A stretch of DNA of 64,000 nt from contig NZ_CP127161.1 of NCBI RefSeq assembly GCF_030263895.1, forward strand, positions 1,736,001-1,800,000, read 5' to 3'. A model generated the notes under the pieces. It was not told where the DNA came from. It searched no databases and worked only from the letters and a program-made list of their open reading frames with translations. The first letter of the stretch is position 1. Each line of letters opens with the position of its first letter. This DNA comes from Proteiniborus sp. MB09-C3. Its GTDB lineage: Bacteria > Bacillota > Clostridia > Tissierellales > Proteiniboraceae. The translations under genes and the position numbers were made by a program. Of the stretch, positions 9,497 to 55,889 are shown in pieces.

Positions 9497-10066
9497 TTGG
9501 CACAGCAATATACCAGAAAAGTGATACGCGAGGCATTCACAAAGATGTTGAATGAGCGTCCACTTAACAAAATCACAGTTAAAGATATTGCTACAGCATG
9601 TGAGATCAATAGAAATACCTTTTATTATTACTATACAGATGTATATGCACTTTTGTCAGAGCTTTTCCAAACAGAACTTCAGACGGTCATTGATGAATAC
9701 AATGACACGCTTTCTTGGGAGGAGAGCTTTATTGTGGCTACTAAATTTGCTTTAGAAAACAAGACAGCCATTTATCATGTATATAATTCTATGCAAAGAG
9801 AAGAATTAGTAAATTATATATACAATGTATCAGGAAATGTCATGATCCGGTATGTTGAAAAAGTTAGTGATGGTATTTTAGCTTCCTCAGAAGATAGAAA
9901 GCTGATTGCTTCCTTTTATCAGGGTGCTCTCACTGAAATGGTACTGCGATGGATTGCTTCTGGAATGAAGGAAGACCCTAATACTATAATCAGACGAATA
10001 GGGCAGCTTTTCGATGGAAACATTGAATTATCCCTTAAGCGAAGTGCTGATTTGAATGATGACTAG
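9497..10066 (+). CDS. TetR/AcrR family transcriptional regulator
   Basis: A 189-residue protein starting at TTG, with AAGGAGGTGG nine bases upstream. The N-terminal helix-turn-helix is ITVKDIATACEINRNTFYYY (about residues 24-43), the TetR signature. The C-terminal ligand domain (about 70-180) resembles the DhaS/TetR_C_8-like group with a conserved FYQGALTEMVLRWIASGM. It is followed by a strong terminator and then the oleate hydratase gene on the same strand. That makes it the likely regulator of fatty-acid-responsive expression of that enzyme. This link is from context. Confidence 0.9.
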   Translation: MAQQYTRKVIREAFTKMLNERPLNKITVKDIATACEINRNTFYYYYTDVYALLSELFQTELQTVIDEYNDTLSWEESFIVATKFALENKTAIYHVYNSMQREELVNYIYNVSGNVMIRYVEKVSDGILASSEDRKLIASFYQGALTEMVLRWIASGMKEDPNTIIRRIGQLFDGNIELSLKRSADLNDD

Positions 10067-10367: not shown

Positions 10368-12161
10368 ATGAAATTAAAGACACATGATGATAGACTTACG
10401 CTTACAAATGGAACTTATCATTCTTTAGTAAATGCGAGAAAGCCTAAAGGAATTGAAGACAAAAAAGCTTATTTAATTGGTACAGGAATTGGTGCTTTGG
10501 CTGCTGGTTGTTTTTTAATTCGTGATGCTCATATGGATGGCAGCAAGATTACTTTCTTAGAGCAATTAGATATTCCTGGTGGATCTTTGGACGGTGAGGT
10601 TCGTCAAAATATGAATTATGTAGCACGTGGCGGACGTGAAATGGGTCATCATTTTGAGGTTTTATGGAGCTTGTTTAGTTCATTACCATCTACAGAAGAT
10701 CCTAATATGACTGTTTTAGATCATTTTTATTATACAAATTATGATGATCCAAACTTTAGTAATTGTCGTATTACTAAAAATCAAGGTGAACGCTATGACA
10801 ATGGAAAATTTAATCTGGGTCAAGATTTAGCAAAAGAATTAGCTGCTTTTGTAAGCATAAGTGATGACGAACTTCAAAATAAATCTATTGAAGATGTTCT
10901 TTCTGAAGAACTTTTAAACACTGATTTCTGGACATATTGGAGAACAATGTTTGCATTTGAAAACTGGCATAGTGCTTTAGAGATGAAATTATATATGAAT
11001 CGTTTTATTCATCATGTTGGAGGCCTACCAGATCTTTCTGCTTTACAATTTTCAAGACATGATCAATATACTTCATTTGTAAAACCTATGGTTAAATATT
11101 TGGAAGACAATGGTGCTAAATTTGAATATGGAATTACTGTAGACAATGTTGAGTTTTCAATTTCAGATGATAAAAAGGTTGCAAAGAAAATAGTTGCAAC
11201 AGATAAAACTGGAAAGGATATTTTTATTGACTTAACAGAAAATGATCTAGTATTTATTACTAATGGTTCTATGACTGAAGGTTCTGGATATGGTGATGAC
11301 AATACTCCTGCTCCATTTAATAGGGAACCAGAAGGATGTTGGAGGTTATGGAGAAACATAGCGGCTCAATCAGATGAATTTGGAAACCCAGATAAATTCT
11401 GTACAGATACAGAAAAATCTAATTGGGAGTCTTGTACAGTAACCTGCCATGATGAACGTGTTCCTAAGTATATTGAAAAGATCACAAAACGTTCGCCATA
11501 TGGAGGACGTACTGTAACAGGCGGTATAGTTACAGCTATTGATTCTTCATGGTTGATGAGCTGGACAATAAACCGTCAAGAACAATATTATGGACAACCC
11601 GAAAAAGATGTTGTAGTTTGGGTATATGGTTTGTTTTCTGATGTTCCTGGAGATTACATTAAAAAGCCTATGAGAGATTGTACTGGTAAGGAAATCACAA
11701 AAGAGTGGTTATATCATATAGGTGTTCCTACTGATCAAATTGAAAAGTTAGCAGAATCATGTAGTTCAGTTCCTGTTATGATGCCATTTATTACATCTCA
11801 ATTTATGCCTCGTGAATTTGGAGATCGTCCATATGTTGTACCAAAGAATGCAGTAAATTTTGCTTTTCTTGGACAATTTGCTGAAACATTGGATGATCCG
11901 GGACGTGATACTGTGTTTACCATCGAATACTCAGGACGTACGGCCATGGAAGCTGTATATGTTTTGACTGGAGTTGAAAAAGGAGTTCCTGAGGTATTTT
12001 CTTCGAGATACGATATCCGTTATTTGTTAAATGCGGGTAAGTGCTTACTAGATGGAGAAAAACCAGAAATTAATTTATCACCATTAGCTAAGCGTAAAAT
12101 TATAAAACAAATAGCAGGAACAGATATTGAAAAGTTGTTGAAAGAATATGAAATTATTTAA
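10368..12161 (+). CDS. ohyA: Oleate hydratase (fatty-acid double-bond hydratase)
   Basis: A 597-residue protein, the full family length, that adds water to the cis-9 double bond of unsaturated fatty acids to give 10-hydroxy acids. It uses FAD as a structural cofactor. The N-terminal dinucleotide site is GTGIGALAAG (about 38-47), and the acid E near 91 lies in the family motif RGGREM. Other family blocks are NWHSALEMKLYMNRFIHHVG and SQFMPREFGDRP. It is a soluble or membrane-peripheral enzyme usually linked to detoxification of host or environmental unsaturated fatty acids. AGAAAGAGGGAG precedes the ATG. The gene is monocistronic between two terminators, behind a TetR regulator. Confidence 0.95.
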   Translation: MKLKTHDDRLTLTNGTYHSLVNARKPKGIEDKKAYLIGTGIGALAAGCFLIRDAHMDGSKITFLEQLDIPGGSLDGEVRQNMNYVARGGREMGHHFEVLWSLFSSLPSTEDPNMTVLDHFYYTNYDDPNFSNCRITKNQGERYDNGKFNLGQDLAKELAAFVSISDDELQNKSIEDVLSEELLNTDFWTYWRTMFAFENWHSALEMKLYMNRFIHHVGGLPDLSALQFSRHDQYTSFVKPMVKYLEDNGAKFEYGITVDNVEFSISDDKKVAKKIVATDKTGKDIFIDLTENDLVFITNGSMTEGSGYGDDNTPAPFNREPEGCWRLWRNIAAQSDEFGNPDKFCTDTEKSNWESCTVTCHDERVPKYIEKITKRSPYGGRTVTGGIVTAIDSSWLMSWTINRQEQYYGQPEKDVVVWVYGLFSDVPGDYIKKPMRDCTGKEITKEWLYHIGVPTDQIEKLAESCSSVPVMMPFITSQFMPREFGDRPYVVPKNAVNFAFLGQFAETLDDPGRDTVFTIEYSGRTAMEAVYVLTGVEKGVPEVFSSRYDIRYLLNAGKCLLDGEKPEINLSPLAKRKIIKQIAGTDIEKLLKEYEII

Positions 12162-12185: not shown

Positions 12186-12223
12186 ATTAAAATCCCGATT
12201 GTTTTAAAATTCGGGATTTTAAT
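12186..12223 (+). terminator. Intrinsic terminator after oleate hydratase
   Basis: A perfect 13-bp inverted repeat, ATTAAAATCCCGA / TCGGGATTTTAAT, with a 12-base loop. The 3' arm supplies the T-rich run. Confidence 0.8.
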
Positions 12224-12301: not shown

Positions 12302-14413
12302 GTGAAAGAGCAAGAAAGTATGAAACAGGCTCATATTCCTACTATAGAAGAAATGCAAAGCTGGTATGAAGAAGATTTGCGAAGAGAAGCCTTAAAATCA
12401 TCGGGATATGAGAATGATAAAAGAATAGATGAACAGGGAGCATTTTTTAGGGCTTTTCGAAAATTTGAAAAAATGGACAGCAAAATCCTTTCCGATTCTA
12501 GGAAAAATAATTTGTATTACGAAAAATATAAAGCATATGTAGAAGAGGAAACAATCAATAAGGGCAAAAAGATACAGGAAGTTGAAAATTCGATTGAATA
12601 TGAAAGGTTTTTTCTCCGTTGGGAAAGGAGGGTCAATAGCGAGAGTAACAATTACAGTCATTATGGCAGTAATTCAGCTACAAGATATCGAGTTGACTGC
12701 ATAGAAAAATTGGAAAAAGAGTTAGAAATAATCCTGAAAAACTCTCCAGAAGCATGGGAATTTTATTATAGACGTCAATTGATAAGCGATATAGAAACTC
12801 AACACGAGCAACGTCTAGTAACTGTTCCTTACGTAGTTAAAGCAAAACAAAAAGTAATAGAATCATTAAATTTAGGTGTTCCTGTATATATTGTAGGACA
12901 TTTAGGAAGTGGCAAAACACAATTAGCAACTGAGGCAGCCTTGGATTTTACTATTCAAAATAAAATACAAAGAGAATTAGAGGAAAAAATGGAGGATTGG
13001 TTTTCTGCAAATCCAAATGCTACAGAAAAAGATGCCATTCAAAAATTTAGAGAATTTAATGAAGAAAGAAATCTCTACTATAAAAATATTTTAACTAATG
13101 GAAGTAAAGAGGAAATAAAATCTTTACAGCCGTTGTTCATATCTGGTTCGCATAATTTAACTTACGAAGATATGTTCGTAGAAAAAACCTTGTCTCTCAA
13201 ACACAGTTTTTCTCAAGGCTCCTTTGCAGATTATCTGAATATGATTATAGGAGATTTTTATGAGTGGATGGATGATCACAGAACAAGACTAGAGCAGATG
13301 ACTGATGAGGAGCAGTTGCAGCTTAAGATTCAAATATGGAAAAGCTTTTCTGATTTATTGGTAGCAAGTAACAGTGCTTTTGGTACTGAAATCAAAAAAA
13401 TAGAAAGAGAAATTTTGATTGCAGTAAAAGAAGGTCGTCCCGTAATTGTAGACGAATTAAATACAATTGCAATGCAAAACTTAATTGCTTTGAATGATAT
13501 ATTACAACGTCATGCAGGAAATACAGCATACATTACAGGTGTTGGTCCTGTTTTGATTAAATCAGGATTTGGATTTATTGGTACAGGAAACCTGTCAACT
13601 CAAATGGTCAATTATGAAGGAACAAATGAGTTAAATCCGGCCTTTAAGTCACGTTTTGTAACTATTGAATACAATTATGTACCTCAAAAGATAACTGGTT
13701 CCTTAGAAGACCAAGAGTTTCCAGAAGAAAATGAGCTTTTTAGAATAATAATGGCACAGTTAGCTGATAAAAATGGAAATATTCATATTCCTGATTCCAG
13801 AAGGACACTAGAAGAGTTATTTCGCCTCTCTCAGCTGTGCAAGGTTACTCAAAATGTTTTTATGGGTAAGTGGAGAGATAATGAAGTTCAAAAAGAATCT
13901 GGAATGGATGAACTAGAGTTGAGAGAATCTGTATTATCAATCCGAAATATTTTACACGTTTTAGATAATTGGAATCAAGGCGAAGAAAAAGATTTGAGCA
14001 AAGCTTTATGGGATGGTTTTATTAGTTCAATAACCTATCCCGATGATCAAAACTATATTCTCTCACAAGCGGTGCGTTTTGGATTTTTCCCTATAGAAGA
14101 AGGGTGGAATATTGAAACTAAAGGTATAGGAGAGGCAACCACAACCTATGACGAGATTCGTACTCGTCCATATCACTATGTTCGCCCATCAATGGAAACT
14201 TTAAGCTATTTGGATGTAGTTCATCTGATATTTGGGAAGGGAACCCCCAGAAGAACTTTGCCAAAAGAGCTAAAAGAAACTTTTGAAGCTGAAATTGGTG
14301 ATTCAATACGAATTGATGTGAAAAAATATCAAAAATTAGACCAACAATTATCTCATTTAGAGCATTCAAAGGATATACTTGAATACTTAGAAGATAATGG
14401 AGGAGAAAAATGA
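12302..14413 (+). CDS. MoxR/dynein-like AAA+ ATPase of a three-gene operon
   Basis: A 703-residue protein starting at GTG, preceded by AAAGGAGGAAG. Residues 1-185 are a charged helical region. The AAA+ core carries Walker A GHLGSGKT (199-206), a long helical insert (about 215-375), Walker B VIVDEL (381-386), sensor-1 FIGTGN with Asn near 430, and an arginine-finger-like ELNPAFKSRF near 444-453. The order and the GTGN/SRF motifs fit the MoxR/RavA/dynein (AAA_5) branch. The C-terminal 200 residues are helical. Such ATPases remodel a target with the help of a vWA partner, and a vWA gene is third in this operon. It overlaps the next gene by 4 bp. Specific function is unknown. Confidence 0.85.
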   Translation: MKEQESMKQAHIPTIEEMQSWYEEDLRREALKSSGYENDKRIDEQGAFFRAFRKFEKMDSKILSDSRKNNLYYEKYKAYVEEETINKGKKIQEVENSIEYERFFLRWERRVNSESNNYSHYGSNSATRYRVDCIEKLEKELEIILKNSPEAWEFYYRRQLISDIETQHEQRLVTVPYVVKAKQKVIESLNLGVPVYIVGHLGSGKTQLATEAALDFTIQNKIQRELEEKMEDWFSANPNATEKDAIQKFREFNEERNLYYKNILTNGSKEEIKSLQPLFISGSHNLTYEDMFVEKTLSLKHSFSQGSFADYLNMIIGDFYEWMDDHRTRLEQMTDEEQLQLKIQIWKSFSDLLVASNSAFGTEIKKIEREILIAVKEGRPVIVDELNTIAMQNLIALNDILQRHAGNTAYITGVGPVLIKSGFGFIGTGNLSTQMVNYEGTNELNPAFKSRFVTIEYNYVPQKITGSLEDQEFPEENELFRIIMAQLADKNGNIHIPDSRRTLEELFRLSQLCKVTQNVFMGKWRDNEVQKESGMDELELRESVLSIRNILHVLDNWNQGEEKDLSKALWDGFISSITYPDDQNYILSQAVRFGFFPIEEGWNIETKGIGEATTTYDEIRTRPYHYVRPSMETLSYLDVVHLIFGKGTPRRTLPKELKETFEAEIGDSIRIDVKKYQKLDQQLSHLEHSKDILEYLEDNGGEK

Positions 14414-15648
14414 AAATGAATTTTTCAGTAGATGGAAAGAGCTTTAAGAGTCAAGTTAAGGCTCTAAGAGAAAAACTAAATGAATGCCGAAGAAATGGAA
14501 TTTTAGATGATGGCTTTGAAGAACAACTAGACAAACTTTCACAAATAGAAGAAGAGTTATTGGCTGATTTAATTCCGTATTACCGAGTTTATGCAAATAA
14601 TATCAAAAAGACTTCAATGCAAATAAATTCGATAAAGCAATTAGGTGCTTTTACTTTTGACAGTTTTTTAAAAAGTACATTGAGGATTAATAAAAATCTT
14701 TTTATTACAAGTGGTATAGATGGTAAAGTTCAATTTTTTTATATAGATATTGGAGATGATTTTTCTAATCACAATCGAATTGAAGTGGAGTGGAGCCCTC
14801 CCATTAAAGAAATAAAGGAGACAATTTCGTTTATATATAAATTGAGTGATAAAGAAATTTTGATTTTAGGAGTAAGAGGGGGTTGCTATATACTTTCAAG
14901 CAATAACTTTGATAAAATACCCGATTTTAATGAAGAAATCAAAATTAAAAGGATTCAAACAGATAATGATTTTGACGGATTTGGAAGATGTTTAGCAATT
15001 AGAGATAATTTATTTGTAGTGGAAAATGGAGAAGAAAAGTTAAATCTATTTGAAATTATAAAAGAAAGTAGTGAGTATCGTTTAGTTTTTCATAAAGAAA
15101 TATATTGCACTATCCCAAACTGGACAGCATTGGAAAAAATAAATGATGATTATTTTGTAGCTGGGACAAAGATGGGGGAATTCTATTTTATAGAATATGA
15201 GAACAAACAGCTTACTATTAAAGAAAAAATTGAATTTCTAAATTATGAAATAAGACAAATTAGATGTCTAGAGGATGAAAATGGCAATAGAAATTCTCTT
15301 ATAGTGACAGGCAACAACGGTAAGCTTAATATATTTTCTTTATATGAGGATTCAAAAACTATAAAAATAGAATTGAACGATTTGAGAGGAAATTTATTTG
15401 ATGTTCAATCTGAAAGAGGCACAGCTGTAGTTTTAAGTGAAGATGGAATTATATATTTACTTGAGGAGAATTTTGGGGATTGGTATCTAAATGAAGAGGT
15501 GACTATCAAAGATATCTTTTTTACAAATATCTTCAAATTAGATATTTCAAAATACTTGCTCATGGATATAGAAGGTAAATTAAGTTTGCTACACATTGAT
15601 AGAATTGATACACCAAAAGCTTTGTGGGATTTACCACTTTATCAATAG
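14410..15648 (+). CDS. Beta-propeller-like (WD40-type) protein of the AAA/vWA operon
   Basis: A 412-residue cytosolic protein without signal peptide. Residues 5-65 form a likely coiled coil (VKALREKLNECRRNGILDDG and onward). From about 75 to the end, units of some 45-60 residues repeat the pattern of short beta strands with a G-x-h-x-hh ending: SGIDGKVQFFYID, GVRGGCYILSS, GTKMGEFYFIEYE, GNNGKLNIFSLYE, SEDGIIYLLEE, DIEGKLSLLHID. This is the look of a degenerate WD40/propeller. I read it as a substrate- or partner-recognition platform for the ATPase and vWA proteins. It starts in an ATGA overlap with the ATPase, with GGAGGAG upstream. No enzyme motif was seen. Confidence 0.68.
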   Translation: MKMNFSVDGKSFKSQVKALREKLNECRRNGILDDGFEEQLDKLSQIEEELLADLIPYYRVYANNIKKTSMQINSIKQLGAFTFDSFLKSTLRINKNLFITSGIDGKVQFFYIDIGDDFSNHNRIEVEWSPPIKEIKETISFIYKLSDKEILILGVRGGCYILSSNNFDKIPDFNEEIKIKRIQTDNDFDGFGRCLAIRDNLFVVENGEEKLNLFEIIKESSEYRLVFHKEIYCTIPNWTALEKINDDYFVAGTKMGEFYFIEYENKQLTIKEKIEFLNYEIRQIRCLEDENGNRNSLIVTGNNGKLNIFSLYEDSKTIKIELNDLRGNLFDVQSERGTAVVLSEDGIIYLLEENFGDWYLNEEVTIKDIFFTNIFKLDISKYLLMDIEGKLSLLHIDRIDTPKALWDLPLYQ

Positions 15649-15663
15649 TCAGGAGGGATGAGT

Positions 15664-17607
15664 ATGTTTGACTTTGATGAACAAGCTCTAGTTGAAGAAT
15701 CTAAAAAACATTGCGAAGAATTTTTGCAAAAAGAAAAGCGTTCATTAGCCACATTTACTGTAGATTCTAGTTTGCTGTATATTCCTGATTCAAAATTACA
15801 GAGATTTCTATTAGATCCTTCCAAAGGAGTTTTGTACTTGCCCTTGGAAAGTTTTTTGGATAGAAAATTAGATGACAATCAAATCATGTGGCATATTTAC
15901 TATGAGCTAGCATTATATCATGATTGGAAAAAGCAAACTAAAAAATACCTTAATAGAAAAAAAGATTGGCAGAAAGAAATTGATCGCATGACAAGCTATA
16001 TTCTAGCTAGAATAAAAAAAGAAGGACTGGAAAAGGATCCTGCATATCAACCTAAAATTATTTCGAATTATGTGAGAAAAGAAATTCTAGATTTTTTATA
16101 TCTATTGGATAAGTATACATCTTTTTTGAGAGTTTTCCAGATGTGCCCTATATACAGAGATAAAGAAAACTTTGAAAAAGTTGTTTCACATATGAAGCAA
16201 ACAGGCAAGACTACTGAGTCAATTTCACAAAAGCCTAGACATAGAGCTTTTGTGAACAGCTTTTTAATTATTGAATTATATGAAATTGAACCTAAAATTG
16301 AAGGATGTGTTGAAAATCCTTTTGATAGAAAAGTTTTAAATCAGCCTTTTTTTGAGTTTATTCATTATCAATTAATCAGACAGATAAATAGTGATGAAGG
16401 AATTTTAGAAAGAGATCCATTCATTCGCTCTTTTATATTTCCAACTTTTGAGCAATTATGGAAACAAGAAATTGATGAAATGATGTTTTATAAATCAAAA
16501 GGACAGAAAGAAGAGCGAGTTGAAGGAAATAAAAATCCTTTTGAACAGTCTAAAGCAGATGAAATACCAGATTTACTAGAATCTACCCAGGAAGAAGTGG
16601 AGAAGATTTTAGAAGAAATGCTAGATCAGCAGGATAAAATAAGTACCAGCGTACAAAATATTATGCAAGGTAAAGTAGATTTAGAGCCTTATGGGATTAG
16701 TCAAACAGATCAACAATTGTTTCAATTTTATTCGAATAAAATGAAATCGGAAAGGGAACAAATGCGTCAGTTTTGGAAAAAGCTAATAGGAGATGCTAAA
16801 AAAGAAATAAGTGTGAAAAAAGATGGTCAAATAAAGGGAAAGCTAGATATAAGTAGCTTTATTAACTATTATCCAGATTTTGTGGAAGCTGAAAAGAAGG
16901 GAAATTACAAAAACCTTCCGATTTTTAATAGATACTTATTAGAGCCTCAAACAGATATATTGCCTGAAAGGATAGAGATTTCTTTTGTAATAGATAATTC
17001 AGGCTCAATGAATGTGTCAAAAATTGAGGCGGCGAGAAAAGCTTTAGCAGTGACATTGCTATCAATAGATGATTTTAATCGATATTTGAGAAGCAATGCA
17101 GAACAATTGAATCAAAAAGTAGAAGTTTTAAGTGAAACCTGGTTTTATGGAAGTAAGTACTATAATGTTAAAGAATTTAACGATAAAAATGCGAAGGTAA
17201 AAGAAAAAAGCGACATAATTCGCTCAATTGTAAAGCTAGATGCAGCAGATGGAGCAACTGACGATGCAAGCTGTCTTAAAGAAATATCTAATAGAATTAC
17301 GTCCATGCAGGAAAGTGAACTCAAAAAAGGAAAGCAAATAAAAATAGTATTTGAAATTACAGATGGTGCATCAAGTTTTCCAGGATCAGCAAAGGAAGCT
17401 GTACAAGAATTATTATCTAAAAATGTCGAAGTCTATGCATTTCAAATAGGAAAAAATAGTGAAACAAATGAAAAGATTTTTAATTTCGTATGGAATGAAG
17501 GATACAAACAACCGCATGGAGTAATTATTGGTGAACAAGTAGAAAAACTACCTATAGAATTGTTAAAAGCAGTAGGGAAAAATATGCAATCTATTTTCAA
17601 TAATTAG
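15664..17607 (+). CDS. vWA-domain (MIDAS) partner protein of the AAA operon
   Basis: A 647-residue protein. I choose the ATG at 15664 because AGGAGG (15651-15656) abuts an earlier ATG at 15658. Residues 1-400 are mostly helical, with acidic, glutamine-rich stretches. The C-terminal von Willebrand A domain (about 436-640) has a complete metal-ion-dependent adhesion site: D-x-S-x-S in FVIDNSGSMN (about 444-448), Thr in DGATDD (about 532) and Asp in EITDGAS (about 567). A C-terminal vWA behind a long helical region is the architecture of ViaA/CoxE-like partners of MoxR-family ATPases. It starts 15 bp after the propeller gene and is followed by an operon-end terminator. Confidence 0.85.
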   Translation: MFDFDEQALVEESKKHCEEFLQKEKRSLATFTVDSSLLYIPDSKLQRFLLDPSKGVLYLPLESFLDRKLDDNQIMWHIYYELALYHDWKKQTKKYLNRKKDWQKEIDRMTSYILARIKKEGLEKDPAYQPKIISNYVRKEILDFLYLLDKYTSFLRVFQMCPIYRDKENFEKVVSHMKQTGKTTESISQKPRHRAFVNSFLIIELYEIEPKIEGCVENPFDRKVLNQPFFEFIHYQLIRQINSDEGILERDPFIRSFIFPTFEQLWKQEIDEMMFYKSKGQKEERVEGNKNPFEQSKADEIPDLLESTQEEVEKILEEMLDQQDKISTSVQNIMQGKVDLEPYGISQTDQQLFQFYSNKMKSEREQMRQFWKKLIGDAKKEISVKKDGQIKGKLDISSFINYYPDFVEAEKKGNYKNLPIFNRYLLEPQTDILPERIEISFVIDNSGSMNVSKIEAARKALAVTLLSIDDFNRYLRSNAEQLNQKVEVLSETWFYGSKYYNVKEFNDKNAKVKEKSDIIRSIVKLDAADGATDDASCLKEISNRITSMQESELKKGKQIKIVFEITDGASSFPGSAKEAVQELLSKNVEVYAFQIGKNSETNEKIFNFVWNEGYKQPHGVIIGEQVEKLPIELLKAVGKNMQSIFNN

Positions 17608-17825: not shown

Positions 17826-17862
17826 GAAAAATAAGGAGCAGTTCATATGAATCGCTCCTTAT
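17826..17862 (-). terminator. Terminator of the minus-strand sigma/anti-sigma operon
   Basis: On the minus strand, ATAAGGAGC ... GCTCCTTAT (9 bp, with CATATGAA in the loop) is followed by TTTTTC. It lies directly after the stop codon at 17875. Confidence 0.8.
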
Positions 17863-39619: not shown

Positions 39620-40447
39620 ATGATAGAATTACCAGAAGCTATTACTATAGCTCAACAGATTAATGAAACTATCAGTGGAAAAAAAATTAAAGATGTTATT
39701 GCAGCTCAGTCTCCTCATAAATTTGCATGGTATCATGGTGATCCACAAGAGTATTATGATTTGCTTGTGGACAAGGTAATAGGAGAAGCAGCAGGTTTTG
39801 GAGGTCTTGTAGAAATCAATGTAGAGGATGCTGTGATATTATTGGGAGATGGGATAAACTTGAGGCTTCATGGAGAAAAGGAAAAACGGCCTCAGAAGCA
39901 CCAACTATTAATTGAGTTTGAAGATTTTACAGCAATAAGTGCATCAGTTCAGATGTATGGTGGAATATGGTGTTTTAAAGAAGGAGAATTCAAAAATACA
40001 TATTTTCTACAAGCAAAGAGTAAGCCTTCACCACTTTCAGATAAATTTGACAAAGCATATTTTGACAGTATTATTTCAGCCCTTGAGGTTGAAAAACTTA
40101 GCGCAAAGGCATTTCTTGCAACAGAGCAAAGAATACCTGGCCTTGGGAATGGCGTGTTACAGGATATTCTCTATAATGCTAGAATCCATCCAAAGAAGAA
40201 GATAAGAGCGTTTACTGCAGAGAATAGGGATAATCTTTATGATTCAATAAAATCTACTCTTGCAGAAATGACTTTCCTTGGCGGTAGAGATACTGAAAGA
40301 GATTTGTTTGGATGTTTTGGCAGCTATAAAACTAAGCTTAGTAAAAACACTGTCGATAAACCATGTCCAATATGTGATACTATCATTAAAAAAGAAGCTT
40401 ATATGGGTGGAAGTATATACTATTGCAGTGAATGTCAGAAAAACTAG
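39620..40447 (+). CDS. Fpg/Nei family DNA glycosylase-like protein with atypical N-terminus
   Basis: A 275-residue protein with the Fpg/Nei layout. The N-terminal beta sandwich begins MIELPEA, the helix-two-turn-helix is around QRIPGLGNGVLQDILYNARI (about 172-192), and a C-terminal zinc finger CPIC...CSEC lies at about 250-272. Canonical members start (M)PELPE, where Pro1 is the catalytic nucleophile. Here the residue after Met is Ile, while the Glu-Leu-Pro-Glu after it is kept. Base-excision activity through Pro1 therefore looks impossible as annotated, although DNA binding is likely intact. GGAGAGATGAC precedes the ATG. Confidence 0.85.
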   Translation: MIELPEAITIAQQINETISGKKIKDVIAAQSPHKFAWYHGDPQEYYDLLVDKVIGEAAGFGGLVEINVEDAVILLGDGINLRLHGEKEKRPQKHQLLIEFEDFTAISASVQMYGGIWCFKEGEFKNTYFLQAKSKPSPLSDKFDKAYFDSIISALEVEKLSAKAFLATEQRIPGLGNGVLQDILYNARIHPKKKIRAFTAENRDNLYDSIKSTLAEMTFLGGRDTERDLFGCFGSYKTKLSKNTVDKPCPICDTIIKKEAYMGGSIYYCSECQKN

Positions 40448-40518
40448 AGAACATTTTGTATTCATGAAGTGGAGGAATGTAGATAAATTTGACATTAGAT
40501 AGAGCAGAGGTGAATCAA

Positions 40519-41553
40519 ATGAAAGTATATTATAATTCCAGTATATGGAGTAAAGGTAAAGGGCCTTGCGGATTGGCACAGAAGACAAACTGGGAATTTG
40601 AATATGCAGGGACTAAACGCATTATTCCTGCCATATATCGTTTTTCTCAAGGTATTGTTTTTGATATTATCACTATTTTAGATGAGAAAAAGCTTCGTAA
40701 ATTTTTTGAAAAGTACGAAGCCATTGAAGAGACATTGACACCATTACAGCGGCGTTGTGCAGAGCAGGAGCATCCTTATCAGTCTGTACCAATAAAAGAA
40801 ATATTTATAAATGAAAAACAGGTGGAAAATGGTTATTCATCTAGCGGTGCAATGAGTATACCGTGGGAAAAACAAAATGATGAGTTGATCTCCTTGCAAA
40901 GGGCATATTCATCAATTTTAAAAGATACATCCTGTTTTGCTTGTGAACGCTTTTGCGTGCCGTATCCTGAAACAGATTCTAAAATCCAAAAACTACTGCG
41001 TTTTTTGAGATTGATTAAAGTAGATAAAATAAAGTTATGTACCTATCCTATGGAAGAATTTTTTCCTTTGGATATACACTTTAAAATGTCAGTAAATGAA
41101 GAGCAAAAAGAGTTATGCTTTAATCATCCTATAACAGGAATAAAACATACGTTATTTTTTCAGAATGCAGAGACTACAGAATTTCCTATTACAATAAACA
41201 GAAACCGTATCCTTTATAATATGCATTTAATGTATGAAATAGAGCCTGCTTTACCACAGGGAGACACTTTGCAGTTTGGCACTAGTATACAATATACAGA
41301 GCCAGAGCCCATAGTTGATGGATTTAGTCCTGATTCGGCTTCATCTATTGGTATTATCGGTGGAGCTGATGGTCCTACGGCGATCTTTATTTCATCAAGT
41401 GACAAGGGAAAAAAGATACCCTGTGGTCATCATGGATTACCTCTTCATAGCTGTTTATCTGTACTGAGTTTTCAAAACGAGGATGCTTCGAATTTTATCA
41501 TAGAGGGAATTAATATAGAAAAATATGGTAGCTATGAGTATAACCTTCAGTAA
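40519..41553 (+). CDS. Unrecognised protein with a GIIGGADGPT motif
   Basis: A 344-residue cytosolic protein starting MKVYYNSSIWSKGKGPCGLA; the ATG at 40519 follows GAGGTGAATCAA. It contains several Cys/His (FACERFCVPYP, PCGHHGLPLHSC), which may bind a metal. At about 277-295 it carries SIGIIGGADGPTAIFIS, which I recall from the start of sodium-pump decarboxylase beta subunits, where it lies in a membrane context. No membrane helix surrounds it here. Function unknown. It ends at a bidirectional terminator. Confidence 0.7.
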   Translation: MKVYYNSSIWSKGKGPCGLAQKTNWEFEYAGTKRIIPAIYRFSQGIVFDIITILDEKKLRKFFEKYEAIEETLTPLQRRCAEQEHPYQSVPIKEIFINEKQVENGYSSSGAMSIPWEKQNDELISLQRAYSSILKDTSCFACERFCVPYPETDSKIQKLLRFLRLIKVDKIKLCTYPMEEFFPLDIHFKMSVNEEQKELCFNHPITGIKHTLFFQNAETTEFPITINRNRILYNMHLMYEIEPALPQGDTLQFGTSIQYTEPEPIVDGFSPDSASSIGIIGGADGPTAIFISSSDKGKKIPCGHHGLPLHSCLSVLSFQNEDASNFIIEGINIEKYGSYEYNLQ

Positions 41554-42450: not shown

Positions 42451-44847
42451 CTATTTTACTGGAAGAATCAGTTCTTGTCCAATTTGAATCATATTAGGAT
42501 TTCTGATAATATCCTTGTTAAGATTATAAATTTCAATGTAACGAGTACCGCTTCCAAGTTGTTTTAGAGCAATATTCCATAAGCAATCACCTTTAACAAC
42601 AATATAAGTTACTATTGTTGTGTCTTCTTTATCTATATTGTCTGTATTGCTTATCTCATCGGTTTTATCTTCTTTTTCAATTATTAACTCTGTAGAAAGA
42701 TTAGTTTTTAATGTTTCAATTTGTTCATTTGTCATACCACCAGAAAGAAGATAGTTCTTTGCGCTTTCTTCAAGGCTTGTTTTATCTAAATCATCGGTTC
42801 CTGAAATAAATTTAAGCATTGCAAGTACATCCTCAGAAATCAGTTTGTATTGTTGGGTATCTTTTTGAACATCGTAATAATTAATGTAGCTTAGCATATA
42901 ATCTTCAACAATTTCATCCTTTGATGCACCCATTAAAGAGCCAAGCAATGCTGCAAAAAAGCCTGTACGATCCTTACCCTCAGTACAGTGGAAGAGGTAA
43001 GGTCCTTTATTCTCTGACATGAATACTAAACCTTTAATAATACTTGATTTAAATTCATTACTTTTATATGCAAGCCCCATATTTAGAGGTAATACATGAC
43101 TGTTTTTATAAAGCTCTGCATAATATGGTGATGCAAAATCATCTGCTTCAAGATAAGTACTAATGTTTTCAGGCGAATCAGCAAGATTAACAACAGTATT
43201 TACTTTAGCTTCCTTAATTAGATTATCTGAATAGGATGCACGTCCAAGTTCATTATTTATTGGGCTTGAGCTGCGATAAAGAATGCCTTTTGTGATGTTA
43301 CCCATTGTAATATTACGGAAGTTAGCAAATACATCATCAGAGGAATAATCTTCACGATTATTTGTACGTTCTAATTTACGAATCTCGTACTGAACAAGGT
43401 ATTCCTCAGGACCAGTGAGCATAATAGTTACTTTGTCGCCAATTTTTACATCGGCTATTTCGTTAAGCTTTCCATAGTTGATACATATTCCTATATTGGT
43501 ATGTCCTGGATATGCACGAACTAGTGGATATCCACTGTCTACATAGTAACCATCTAGAAATGGAGCTTCAAGTACAAAACCGTTATCAAATATAGCCGTT
43601 ACCATATCACCAGCTTTAAAGCCTAGATTATAGAAATCTTCAATTGAAATATCAGTTAAAGCATGACCGTATTTTTCAATTTCTGTAACTGTAGCTGATA
43701 CATTTGGAGTTTTATAGATTGAATCAACTGAAAGCTTTTCTTTAAGGGATTTAATCTCAGCCGAAGTCATGCCAATTTTTTGAAGATAGTTCTCAGCAGA
43801 TGCCGCAAGGTCAACTTCTGAAATATCAGCTCCTTTTTCATATCCACTGACAGTAGTAGTTAAGGAAGCTATGATATTACTTTTTGCTATAGAAGTATGC
43901 TGCTCACTGCCTTCTTCAACTCCGTAATAGTTCTCGTATGTAGTCATATAATCAGCAACTACTTCATCAAGCTTTGCACCCATAAGGGATTCTAATACAG
44001 CACTTACGAAGCCTGCACGGTCTTTACCCTCAGTACAGTGGATAAGATATGGTCCATCATTTTTGCTTAAGAAACGAAGTCCCTCAGCTAATTTTTTCCC
44101 GAAGTCTTCTCCTGAAATATCAACACCCATATTCAGACTTATAACCTTACCTGCTTCATAAAGAGATTTGTAATATTCAGAATCGAAATCATCTAATGCT
44201 ATATAGCTTTCAATTTCTTCCTCAGAATCAGCTAAATTAAGTACTGCTCCTATTCCAACAGCTTCAGCTAGTGCATTAGAATAAGCTGCACGACCTAGTT
44301 CATTATTTATAGGACTGCTGCTCCTATATAAAACAGCAGGCTTAATTCCTGTAGTTGTAATATTGCGAAAGTTAGCAAATATAGAATCAGTTGCATAATC
44401 AGAGCGTACATTTGTACGTGTCAATTGATGGAGCAGATACTCCGAAAGATATCCTTCTTTTTCTAATAATGAGAATGATACTTTGTCGCCTACGTTTACA
44501 TTGTATGTAGTGGAAAAGTTACCCATGTTTATAGCAACAACGAGTAAATTGTTTTTCTGGTCATCACGCACTACAAGACTTCCAGTATCTACATCACTAT
44601 AGGATGTACAGAAAGGAATTTCAAGTACGTTATCACCTACTGTAACTTTGAGTATATCACCTAACGCATAGCCTGCATCATAGAGGGCCTTAGGTTCAAT
44701 ATCCATTGTAAGGTTGCCATATTTTTGTACCTCAGCAACAGTTCCTAATACATCTGCATAGCTGTTTTCTGCTTTTGCTATGACAGGAAGTGAAAATGCC
44801 ATAACAGTAACCAAAAGCAGTGCAATAATTCTTCTTGTCTGTTTCAT
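42451..44847 (-). CDS. Secreted double tyrosine-phosphatase protein with C-terminal LysM
   Basis: A 798-residue protein starting at ATG 44847, after GAGGAGGAGAA; the ATG at 44862 lies inside the ribosome site. The signal peptide is IIALLLVTVMAFSLPVIAKA. There are two similar halves. Each has an N-terminal beta segment (GTVAEVQKYGNL and ATVTEIEKYGHA), then a Y_phosphatase3-type domain (NFRNITTTGIKP / NFRNITMGNITK) with the active-site loop HCTEGKDRAG (Cys near 271) and HCTEGKDRTG (Cys near 620). The catalytic Cys-x5-Arg is intact in both. A LysM wall-binding domain ends the protein (IVVKGDCLWNIALKQLG, about 745-795). It should act outside the membrane on phosphorylated tyrosine, inositide or another phosphoester. 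The substrate is unknown. Confidence 0.9.
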   Translation of the reverse strand: MKQTRRIIALLLVTVMAFSLPVIAKAENSYADVLGTVAEVQKYGNLTMDIEPKALYDAGYALGDILKVTVGDNVLEIPFCTSYSDVDTGSLVVRDDQKNNLLVVAINMGNFSTTYNVNVGDKVSFSLLEKEGYLSEYLLHQLTRTNVRSDYATDSIFANFRNITTTGIKPAVLYRSSSPINNELGRAAYSNALAEAVGIGAVLNLADSEEEIESYIALDDFDSEYYKSLYEAGKVISLNMGVDISGEDFGKKLAEGLRFLSKNDGPYLIHCTEGKDRAGFVSAVLESLMGAKLDEVVADYMTTYENYYGVEEGSEQHTSIAKSNIIASLTTTVSGYEKGADISEVDLAASAENYLQKIGMTSAEIKSLKEKLSVDSIYKTPNVSATVTEIEKYGHALTDISIEDFYNLGFKAGDMVTAIFDNGFVLEAPFLDGYYVDSGYPLVRAYPGHTNIGICINYGKLNEIADVKIGDKVTIMLTGPEEYLVQYEIRKLERTNNREDYSSDDVFANFRNITMGNITKGILYRSSSPINNELGRASYSDNLIKEAKVNTVVNLADSPENISTYLEADDFASPYYAELYKNSHVLPLNMGLAYKSNEFKSSIIKGLVFMSENKGPYLFHCTEGKDRTGFFAALLGSLMGASKDEIVEDYMLSYINYYDVQKDTQQYKLISEDVLAMLKFISGTDDLDKTSLEESAKNYLLSGGMTNEQIETLKTNLSTELIIEKEDKTDEISNTDNIDKEDTTIVTYIVVKGDCLWNIALKQLGSGTRYIEIYNLNKDIIRNPNMIQIGQELILPVK

Positions 44848-45012
44848 ATTTCTCCTCCTCATAAGATTATTTGATAATCTTCTATGTACAAGCTCATTTA
44901 AATTAGAAGATCAATTTAATTATACCATTTCTCCGTTAATATTACCATAATAGCCCAAGGAATTCAGAGGAAAGGGAAGGGAGAAACTATATATTAACTA
45001 CTGAAATAAAAA

Positions 45013-52442: not shown

Positions 52443-53381
52443 TCATTTTATTTTCACGGGTACAAAGACACTATTTAGAACTCTACTTAGAACATCTTCA
52501 GTATTTCTTTTCTCGATTTTAGCCTCTGGTGAAAGAATCAGTCTATGTCCCAGGACAGATGCTGCCATACTTTTCACATCATCTGGAATAACATAATCGC
52601 GACCTGATAAAAATGCCCTTGCCTTTGCGGCCTTTAATAAATCAATAGAGGCTCTAGGGCTAACTCCTAGCTGTAAATCCTTATAATTACGAGTTGCATT
52701 GGAAATACCTACAATATAGTCCATAATATCATCATGGACTGTTAAATCATCTACTCTAGATTGCATCTCTAATATATCATCATTTGATGCAACAGGTTCA
52801 ATAAGGTTGAGATTTTTTATTGATTGATAGTTCTTTAGTATTTCTATTTCATAGGATTTTCCTGGATATCCAAGTGACAAACGCATCAAAAAGCGATCAA
52901 GCTGTGCTTCTGGCAATGGGAAGGTTCCCTGATATTCAAGCGGATTTTGAGTTGCTAGAACCATAAATGGCTTCTCCAAAACATAGTGACCTTCTTCTGT
53001 AGATACTTCTCCTTCCTCCATAGCCTGTAGTAAACTAGACTGAGTTTTTGGAGAAGTTCTGTTAATTTCGTCAGCCAAAAATATTTGATTGAATATGGCA
53101 CCTTTTTTAAAAGAAAAGGTTCCGGTGTCTTTGTCATAGATACTAACTCCTATAATATCTGAAGGCATTAGATCAGGAGTAAATTGAACTCTTTTATAAG
53201 ATAAATCCATACTTCTTGCAAGGGCTTTAACAAGAGTAGTTTTACCGACTCCAGGCACATCTTCTATTAATAAATGACCTCTTGCAAGTATAGCAATCAA
53301 AACTTTTTCCAATACATCGTCCTTACCAATTATGACTTTCTTTAGATTTTCTAAAATATCCAATGCTTTTCTATTATTCAT
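52443..53381 (-). CDS. MoxR family AAA+ ATPase (intact copy)
   Basis: A 312-residue ATPase starting at ATG 53381 after GGGGGAAGAC. Walker A is GVGKTTLVKA in DVPGVGKTTLV, Walker B is IFLADEINRT, the sensor region is VLATQNPLEYQGTFPLPEAQ and the arginine finger follows in LDRFLMRL. MoxR proteins act as chaperone-like regulators for DUF58 and transglutaminase partners, the two genes directly upstream of it here. Unusually it lies downstream of them with its own promoter region. A collapsed second copy is fused to the DUF58 gene. Confidence 0.93.
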   Translation of the reverse strand: MNNRKALDILENLKKVIIGKDDVLEKVLIAILARGHLLIEDVPGVGKTTLVKALARSMDLSYKRVQFTPDLMPSDIIGVSIYDKDTGTFSFKKGAIFNQIFLADEINRTSPKTQSSLLQAMEEGEVSTEEGHYVLEKPFMVLATQNPLEYQGTFPLPEAQLDRFLMRLSLGYPGKSYEIEILKNYQSIKNLNLIEPVASNDDILEMQSRVDDLTVHDDIMDYIVGISNATRNYKDLQLGVSPRASIDLLKAAKARAFLSGRDYVIPDDVKSMAASVLGHRLILSPEAKIEKRNTEDVLSRVLNSVFVPVKIK

Positions 53382-53400
53382 GTCTTCCCCCATTTCAAAA

Positions 53401-53543: not shown

Positions 53544-55889
53544 TTATTTAATTTTGCTTACCGAATGTCCTTTTTTCATATATTTACGATAATAATAGAC
53601 TATAGGATTCCTGTTTCTAAGATATTTTTCAAGATCTTTTCTGTATTCCTTTAGCTCCATTATATCTTCATCAGAAGCAGGGAAGCCTCCGTATTTACTT
53701 CTAACAAAGATATCTGTTATCTCAAATGTTCCTTTTACATTGTATGTGTACAATCTGTGTACAGTTCGTTTAGCATATTCATAGTGGGTCTCTCCAGATT
53801 TCTGAGGATAACCTAGAAATTCTATAAGCTTAACTATTTGTCCATACAAACAAATAACTCTATCATTATTTGATAATTTTTTAGTCTGAGCTTCCTGATA
53901 AACATATTTCGAAAATCCTATCAAAAACCGCATGGGAAGCATCAATAGCAAGACAATTAGGAGACTATCTGCAATCTTTTTTCGCAATTCAAATTCATTA
54001 GGTATATTTTTGGCTGGCTCGTTATAGGCTGGATTATTTTCGTCGTATAAAATATCTATGCCATTGTCTATTATTTGATTATAGAAATTAATCACAGGGC
54101 TTTTATTATTCAAGTCTATTTCATCAGTAGTTTTATCATGTAAGTCTATTCCATTGATAGTTATATCGTCAACTTTATCTTCAACAGGCTGATAATCTTC
54201 TAATCTAGGCTGTACAGGATAAGCAGGTGTAGGTTCAAAGGTCATCCAGCCAACGGGCTCTATAAATGCTTCCACCCATGCATGAGCATTTTTACTTCTC
54301 ACCTCATATATTCCAGGCTCATCTGTTTCCTGAGTCAAATATCCTTCAACATATCTGCTAGGTATTCCTTCAAGCCTAAGCATTATTGCCATAGAAGTAG
54401 CAAAATAGGTACAGTAACCCTCTTGTTCCTCAAATAAGAAATAATCAATGAACTCCTTCCCTTCCGGTACCTGGTTTACATTTAGATTATATTTATAGTT
54501 ATTTCGAAGAAAGCCTTCAATGGCTTGTGCTTTTTGAAAATCATTGTGTGAATCCTTAACTATTTCCTTAACTAGGTTTTTTGTCCTTGATGTTATTCTA
54601 TCTTTAGGTATCTGGAGGTATTCTTCTATACTGGTCATATATGTCCTTTTTTGATTTATACCAAGGGATATCAACATCCCATATGGAAGTGGCTTCAGTG
54701 CTTTGACAGTATAACTTTCCCTATCATGGACTCCCTCTGAGAAAAATAAAATATTATCACGATTTACATTCAAAATGTGGTAGTCTTCAGAGTAGACTTC
54801 TACTGCTCTATAAGGGCTAAAAATAGTTGTTGAGGCAAAGGAACGATTAGTAATAGTAATATATTTTTCATCATAGTAGGTTTCTTGTTCGTATTCCGAA
54901 AGTCCGCTAAAATCTTGTTTTAGTTTATAATTTCTTAAAGGACCTGTGATTGTCTTCCATTGATCTCCAGTATATGTATGCTTTACACTTCCTCTGAGAT
55001 ATATATTATCGTCTGAATATACTGTCATGATTTTCTTGTCGCTTAAGCTTACAGGTCCCCCTAATTTTGAGCTACTTTCGTGATAGTCAGTAAATGAAAA
55101 ATCAAATATTGAGGCTTTGCTTGACTCTCTATCAGAAATATCATTGGAACGTAAGTCTTCAATACCTGGAAAGGCATTATAAACTGCTTGATACAGCCAA
55201 GGCCATCCTATATAGCTGTTACTTTTAGGCAAAAGCAGTGCTATAGAGACAATTAATATACTATACGTAATAGCTATTTTAAGCCAGCGTACATAGGAGC
55301 CTTCGAAAGAGTAGCTTGTTGAATTTTTAACCTTCGTTCTTTCCTTGCAATATTTATTTAAACCCATAAGAACAAAAAAGAATATAAAAAATATAGAAAT
55401 CATCAAATATGCCTGATCGTAGTAATTGTACCAGTAGACAAGGAATAAGCCTATATAAACAGGGAGCAGCCAATAGATACTTTTACTTTTAAACAGTATG
55501 AAGGCAGTAAAAAATGATAGGAAAACTATTAATATTCCCCAGAGCAGAAGTAAATTATCCGAGGCAATGTTTTCTTTGCCTTGGAGATTATTGATAATAT
55601 TATTGAACAAATAAATAGCTTTATCTGCCATAAGAAAGGCTATAGGTGTGATAAAACGATGTACTAGAATAATTCCTAAAACACAAGCAGTTAAAAGAGT
55701 AAATAAAACAATTGGATTTAGTAAAAAAAACTTGACTACCATACTTCCTATAAAAACTATCAGAATTTGCATTATAATATTTAACCTTAAATCCATTCCC
55801 AAACCAAGCATGTACACGAGGCTAAACACTAGAGAAGCATAAGCAAGGTTAAATATAAGCTTTTGAATTCTATCTGATAATCTATACAT
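53544..55889 (-). CDS. Transglutaminase-like membrane protein (TgpA type)
   Basis: A 781-residue protein. Residues about 10-215 hold six or seven membrane helices, then a large extracytoplasmic region with a transglutaminase-like core: the catalytic Cys in EGYCTYFATSMAIMLRLEGI (about 480-500) and His in NAHAWVEAFIEPVGWMTFEP. One more helix (about 655) precedes a cytosolic tail. The family is usually partnered with MoxR and DUF58, and the natural substrate is unknown. It overlaps the DUF58 gene by 8 bp. GGAGGTATA precedes the ATG. Confidence 0.9.
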   Translation of the reverse strand: MYRLSDRIQKLIFNLAYASLVFSLVYMLGLGMDLRLNIIMQILIVFIGSMVVKFFLLNPIVLFTLLTACVLGIILVHRFITPIAFLMADKAIYLFNNIINNLQGKENIASDNLLLLWGILIVFLSFFTAFILFKSKSIYWLLPVYIGLFLVYWYNYYDQAYLMISIFFIFFFVLMGLNKYCKERTKVKNSTSYSFEGSYVRWLKIAITYSILIVSIALLLPKSNSYIGWPWLYQAVYNAFPGIEDLRSNDISDRESSKASIFDFSFTDYHESSSKLGGPVSLSDKKIMTVYSDDNIYLRGSVKHTYTGDQWKTITGPLRNYKLKQDFSGLSEYEQETYYDEKYITITNRSFASTTIFSPYRAVEVYSEDYHILNVNRDNILFFSEGVHDRESYTVKALKPLPYGMLISLGINQKRTYMTSIEEYLQIPKDRITSRTKNLVKEIVKDSHNDFQKAQAIEGFLRNNYKYNLNVNQVPEGKEFIDYFLFEEQEGYCTYFATSMAIMLRLEGIPSRYVEGYLTQETDEPGIYEVRSKNAHAWVEAFIEPVGWMTFEPTPAYPVQPRLEDYQPVEDKVDDITINGIDLHDKTTDEIDLNNKSPVINFYNQIIDNGIDILYDENNPAYNEPAKNIPNEFELRKKIADSLLIVLLLMLPMRFLIGFSKYVYQEAQTKKLSNNDRVICLYGQIVKLIEFLGYPQKSGETHYEYAKRTVHRLYTYNVKGTFEITDIFVRSKYGGFPASDEDIMELKEYRKDLEKYLRNRNPIVYYYRKYMKKGHSVSKIK

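Follow-up and report, generated by a model that had tools for sequence, protein, structure and literature searches.

A three-gene AAA+, beta-propeller and vWA cluster invariably linked to oleate hydratase: a candidate remodelling machine for a fatty-acid hydratase

We analysed a 64,000-nucleotide stretch of the genome of Proteiniborus sp. MB09-C3 (NZ_CP127161.1, a contig of 3.88 Mb, positions 1,736,001 to 1,800,000; hereafter the window), in which three consecutive genes, here called A, B and C, follow a gene for oleate hydratase (OhyA), which hydrates unsaturated fatty acids. The gene order on the plus strand is TetR-type regulator, OhyA, A, B, C. The last three form one tight gene cluster, and their coordinates agree with an initial annotation, made from the sequence alone, that had described three open reading frames on one strand, two of them joined by a 4-bp overlap. 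The start of the unit had been placed at 12302; this no longer holds, as the invariant partner of the trio is the OhyA gene directly upstream. The features discussed here are listed below by window position.

9497-10066, plus strand: TetR-type regulator (TetR_N and TetR_C_8, Pfam 1e-22), a usual member of the unit
10368-12161, plus strand: OhyA, MCRA family, 597 amino acids, RGGREM loop intact; probable client (Pfam MCRA; 7kav; upstream of A in 47/47 loci)
12186-12223, plus strand: terminator-like hairpin between OhyA and A (sequence; hairpin scan of intergenic regions)
12302-14413, plus strand: A, 703 amino acids, GTG start with a good ribosome-binding site; MoxR/dynein-branch-like AAA+ ATPase with a long insert between Walker A and B (AAA_5 in 23/23 relatives)
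12896-12919, plus strand: Walker A of A, GHLGSGKT, residues 199-206 (alignment)
13442-13456, plus strand: Walker B of A, VIVDE, residues 381-385 (alignment)
14410-15648, plus strand: B, 412 amino acids, ATG start, overlapping A by 4 bp; helical hairpin and beta-propeller (AlphaFold model, propeller matches, divergence, fusions at loci L055 and L058)
14434-14589, plus strand: N-terminal helical hairpin of B, residues 9-60 (AlphaFold), conserved above most of the propeller
14614-15600, plus strand: beta-propeller of B, residues 69-397 (AlphaFold, structural matches)
15658-17607, plus strand: C, 649 amino acids; helical N-terminal region, linker and C-terminal von Willebrand factor A (vWA) domain (Pfam VWA, AlphaFold, NorD and Rea1-MIDAS matches)
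16804-16953, plus strand: residues 383-432 of C, a segment of good conservation (0.71-0.73) ahead of the vWA core, corresponding in position to the pore "finger" of NorD
16993-17007, plus strand: metal ion-dependent adhesion site (MIDAS) motif DNSGS of C, residues 446-450, invariant

Every sequence test made identifies the gene immediately preceding A as an oleate hydratase. It matches Pfam MCRA at 1.4e-201 and aligns with S. aureus OhyA (7kav) at 668 bits, with the catalytic loop RGGREM, for which a role of Glu82 has been described (PMC7948970), aligned and intact. The same genome holds a second, weak MCRA-family match (G000:C1:3571835-3572215; 33 bits) that covers the N-terminal part of the profile only. 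A TetR homologue accompanies most of the 47 related loci described below, usually upstream of OhyA and in two of them after C instead, and 35 loci fall into one TetR protein cluster. No convincing palindromic TetR operator shared among the loci was found upstream of OhyA.

A has the conserved positions of an AAA+ ATPase. Walker A (GHLGSGKT), Walker B (VIVDEL, including D384/E385), N430 and R451 vary little or not at all among 23 relatives, so that Walker A, Walker B, sensor 1 Asn and Arg finger positions are all retained. K205 and D384 lie 179 residues apart, and the unusually long insert between Walker A and B noted in the initial annotation is therefore real. Pfam AAA_5 (dynein-related) is matched by all 23 relatives; A appears to belong to the MoxR-like/dynein-related branch, within which sequence does not separate MoxR proper from the wider dynein-related group. 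Elsewhere in the window lies a canonical MoxR (AAA_3; 52443-53393, minus strand) beside a TgpA-like transglutaminase (53544-55889, minus strand), an ordinary MoxR cluster whose MoxR gave no significant profile match to A in hhalign. A search of 398 genomes of the phylum for distant homologues of A at 1e-8 found none beyond its own genome, a first look at a sparse sample that may miss some.

C carries the complete C-terminal MIDAS vWA domain that had been claimed for it. The Pfam VWA match is at 1e-9, the MIDAS residues D446, S448, S450, T534 and D569 are invariant in 31 relatives, and the domain ends at the C-terminus of the protein in the AlphaFold model. Among the nearest solved structures are Rea1-MIDAS (Z 20.8) and NorD (Z 18.8), the latter aligning over 228 residues at 4.1 Å, with the match to NorD residues 382-645 beginning at residue 348 of C. 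The conserved segment 383-432 may be the equivalent of the NorD finger that enters the ATPase pore (PMC13036017). C differs from NorD in its N-terminal 340 residues, which have no fold match among the matches listed for C and were not searched alone. A degenerate zincin-like appearance in this part of C (HIYYELALY) was set aside as an impression only.

The initial annotation had proposed structure prediction as a check on the middle protein, which it had described as a coiled coil plus propeller. The AlphaFold model of B (predicted local distance difference test score 89.2, predicted template modelling score 0.87) bears this out, with a helical hairpin at residues 9-60 followed by an all-beta domain at 69-397 that matches propellers of the WD40/G-beta type at Z ~24. 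B is the fastest-evolving member of the trio, at 27% identity where A is at 52%; its helical hairpin and last blade are better conserved than the rest of the propeller, suggesting a docking end and a variable surface. In two loci of uncultured Clostridiales, A and B are fused as one protein (L055:2121-4811 and L058:5424-8555), which supports a physical association between them. Apparent giant B proteins in L051 and L061 (from ~12520) were discarded as database masking, with runs of masked N inside B and beyond. Together, the AAA_5 match, complete MIDAS and predicted propeller uphold the picture of a MoxR-like/vWA remodelling pair with a propeller as third subunit.

The boundaries of the set are less clear than had been claimed. 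Closure by a promoter and terminator of its own is not well supported: promoter-like matches occur about as often as in shuffled sequence (43 observed versus 40.1 +/- 7.4), and the sole terminator-like match after C on the plus strand has a 5-bp stem. A stronger palindrome, near 17831-17862, sits just behind a convergent minus-strand gene.

The linkage of A-B-C to OhyA is the central observation. Using an ATPase alignment as the query, in which OhyA had no part, we searched the genomes of 84,980 species and found 47 relatives, in Clostridia, Tissierellia, Vagococcus and Erysipelothrix. OhyA lies directly upstream of A on the same strand in all 47 loci, with a gap of 47-268 bp and no intervening gene. 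B and C follow in the same order in nearly all of them, so that the trio recurs elsewhere as a unit, a point raised by the initial annotation; the exceptions are short contigs, masked sequence, frameshifts, the two A-B fusions and one internal deletion. Smaller samples agree. Among 150 genomes of the same order, C was found in 18, with OhyA upstream in every case (two interrupted by contig ends); by a strict count, C is present in 17 of 38 genomes with OhyA versus 1 of 112 others (Fisher 4e-11). In 391 genomes of the class, all eight full-length ATPases are adjacent to OhyA. These counts are inflated by shared descent.

The linkage could instead reflect passive transfer of the genes together on a mobile cassette, with no functional dependence between OhyA and A-B-C. 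Identities of 83-88% across different families do suggest transfer. However, identity to the window proteins falls to ~50% for A and ~21% for B with the linkage kept, which therefore does not reflect recent copying alone, and the linkage survives deep divergence of all three proteins. Moreover, the flanks share no mobile-element family, and A-B-C has been lost from beside OhyA and is never seen without it. We regard passive co-transfer as very improbable. Divergence is closely correlated among A, B and C (r 0.97-0.98) and also correlates with that of OhyA (0.80-0.88). When all flanking proteins were clustered, the only widely shared neighbours were the TetR gene and a generic cluster of ABC-transporter ATPases.

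The dependence runs in one direction. OhyA is common without A-B-C, and even in the branch of the OhyA tree that holds A-B-C the trio is absent from 16 of 68 rows, with at least five gains or losses on well-supported branches. In two genomes (G056 and G809) an OhyA 90-93% identical to that of the window has no A-B-C behind it. In another (G810; L139:4589-5347), a truncated remnant of A lies directly behind an OhyA 92% identical to that of the window, a sequence pattern that shows A-B-C decaying while OhyA stays. Since OhyA often occurs without A-B-C and A-B-C always occurs with OhyA, A-B-C appears to depend on OhyA, with no dependence the other way, which is what an accessory machine would show; on comparative genomic evidence this dependence is strongly supported. 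All A-B-C-linked OhyA proteins fall in a single branch, with its own N-terminal extension and residues and an LDxPG insertion that are absent from 11 other OhyA proteins compared. Inside this branch, no residues separated A-B-C-bearing from A-B-C-free OhyA at the thresholds used. In a locus of Neofamilia massiliensis (L064:9977-13154, same genome as L145), B is missing, and so are the C-terminal third of A and the beginning of C; this represents either decay or a reduced two-part form.

The patchy distribution of A-B-C could also indicate an anti-phage or conflict system. MoxR-vWA ternary conflict systems, consisting of a MoxR, a vWA protein and a variable third component, have been described, including one type with beta-propellers (Kaur et al. 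2020, PMC7159879). That propeller type carries the propeller as a C-terminal fusion to the vWA protein, whereas here it is a separate protein; those systems also occur in other phyla and lack OhyA. A-B-C lies always beside OhyA and has no variable effector. PADLOC models gave no match to A, B or C at E 0.001 (ZorA matched C weakly, at E 0.05), and collections of phage, plasmid and viral contigs contained no match to A-B-C. A search for a defence island around the locus returned only generic ATPase matches, to the neighbouring ABC transporter. A defence role is thus not supported, and we consider it highly unlikely. The initial annotation had recognised no named system in these genes, and no match to any family or defence model searched identifies them as one. 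It had also left defence, proteostasis and enzyme activation equally open; they are no longer equal, because the invariant partner is OhyA, which favours enzyme activation.

Known MoxR/vWA machines provide a framework for the proposed function. The genes for CbbQO lie directly downstream of Rubisco genes, and the vWA domain of CbbO binds an acidic residue of Rubisco (PMC4660213). Like CbbQ-CbbO, A-B-C combines a MoxR-group AAA+ protein with a C-terminal vWA/MIDAS protein, encoded directly downstream of a client or likely client enzyme, and is found with, and next to, one enzyme gene, as is characteristic of CbbQO-type activases. It is not a CbbQO member, because the directly upstream gene encodes oleate hydratase and not Rubisco; A also has a much longer Walker A-B interval. 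To our knowledge, CbbQ-CbbO has no propeller subunit. In NorQD, the vWA protein inserts a finger into the AAA+ pore, and hydrolysis of ATP has been proposed to twist the vWA partner and so remodel the client (PMC13036017). The vWA region of C and the segment preceding it align with NorD, but NorQD matures nitric oxide reductase by metal insertion into a membrane complex and has no propeller. RavA-ViaA is a further MoxR/vWA pair reported to act on a flavoprotein: ViaA binds FrdA, and the pair has been reported to repress fumarate reductase and to bind lipids (PMC10585395). It differs in having no propeller gene and no link to OhyA, and comparisons with single RavA and ViaA sequences gave A and C no significant profile match. 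By analogy, A-B-C would follow the CbbQO-Rubisco and NorQD pattern of a MoxR-like AAA+/vWA machine dedicated to an adjacent enzyme, with a fast-evolving propeller subunit in addition, and its likely client would be OhyA, a membrane-surface flavoenzyme.

From the genes present, their motifs and predicted folds, the constant association with one OhyA subfamily and the one-way dependence, we think it probable that A, B and C are a dedicated ATP-driven remodelling machine for the OhyA encoded directly upstream. By analogy with the machines above, we infer that a complex forms, that OhyA is its client and that the effect is activation in preference to restraint. OhyA attaches to membranes by its mobile C-terminus, and its conformation shifts with flavin adenine dinucleotide (FAD) (PMC10847778, PMC7948970), properties that offer states for a remodelling machine to act on. 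A would form a MoxR-type ring, into whose pore C would plug its finger segment, and the MIDAS metal site of C would grip an acidic surface residue of OhyA. B would dock by its helical hairpin and position OhyA or its membrane surface. ATP hydrolysis would then pull on OhyA and switch its state, for example by freeing stalled product- or FAD-bound enzyme or by lifting it off the membrane. The chances seem to us about even that this three-subunit assembly of MoxR-like ring, vWA gripper and propeller adaptor is the first machine of its kind to activate or remodel a fatty-acid hydratase, with control over either the flavin/product cycle of the enzyme or its membrane attachment.

Several observations weigh against this proposal. 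The loci are related by descent and transfer, and 47 loci are not 47 independent events. Comparisons of A and C with single RavA, ViaA and canonical MoxR sequences by hhalign were not significant (probabilities of 2% and 9% for the RavA and ViaA comparisons). OhyA of the same subfamily occurs without A-B-C, which would therefore not be needed for basal OhyA activity. Finally, a terminator-like hairpin, often of differing sequence, separates OhyA from A in about two thirds of loci by the hairpin scan, so that the two genes may or may not be transcribed together. Such a hairpin could permit much OhyA and little machine, which would fit an enzyme and its activase. Alternatively, it suggests separate control, and A-B-C might belong to the same fatty-acid response but act on another membrane or lipid protein, with the link to OhyA reflecting a shared need only. 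The joint travel of TetR, OhyA and A-B-C is consistent with this, but the locus conserves no further gene family, and A-B-C is confined to a single OhyA subfamily, which points to OhyA itself; another client is quite unlikely.

The direction of the effect is a further question. A-B-C could be a brake that holds or strips OhyA and restricts how far the membrane fatty acids of the cell itself are hydrated. The same genomic evidence would fit, as would the optional presence of A-B-C, which suits a regulator, and RavA-ViaA represses Frd through a ViaA-FrdA contact (PMC10585395). CbbQO, whose genes follow those of its enzyme, is the nearest parallel in architecture and is an activase, and we consider a brake unlikely.

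In the openly accessible literature that we searched, a partnership of oleate hydratase with a MoxR/vWA machine was found described nowhere, and a paper on the genomic context of OhyA in Bacillales makes no mention of an ATPase or chaperone. AAA+/vWA remodelling machines with a client gene alongside are known; what is new here lies in the proposed client, in a propeller encoded as its own subunit and in the long insert. The stand-alone OhyA of S. aureus is of the same family as that of the window and shares its RGGREM loop, whereas the A-B-C-linked branch has the N-terminal extension, the LDxPG insertion and usually the A-B-C genes. Few MoxR/vWA machines have a known client. For A-B-C there is a strong candidate that is convenient to work with: oleate hydratase is a soluble enzyme of solved structure, and its activity is simple to measure. 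If a remodelling role is correct, ATP-driven remodelling would extend to fatty-acid detoxification at the membrane surface, and a propeller adaptor would be added to this type of machine. It might also help to explain differences in performance among oleate hydratases, which matter for gut and skin bacteria that handle host fatty acids and for industrial production of hydroxy fatty acids.

Three other genes of the window drew attention. A protein that matches the beta subunit of oxaloacetate decarboxylase over only 32 residues (40489-41553) adjoins a formamidopyrimidine-DNA-glycosylase-like protein (39620-40447). An 803-residue protein encoded at 42451-44862 on the minus strand combines the C-terminal domain of S-adenosylmethionine hydroxide adenosyltransferase with two tyrosine-phosphatase stretches and LysM, an unusual mix.

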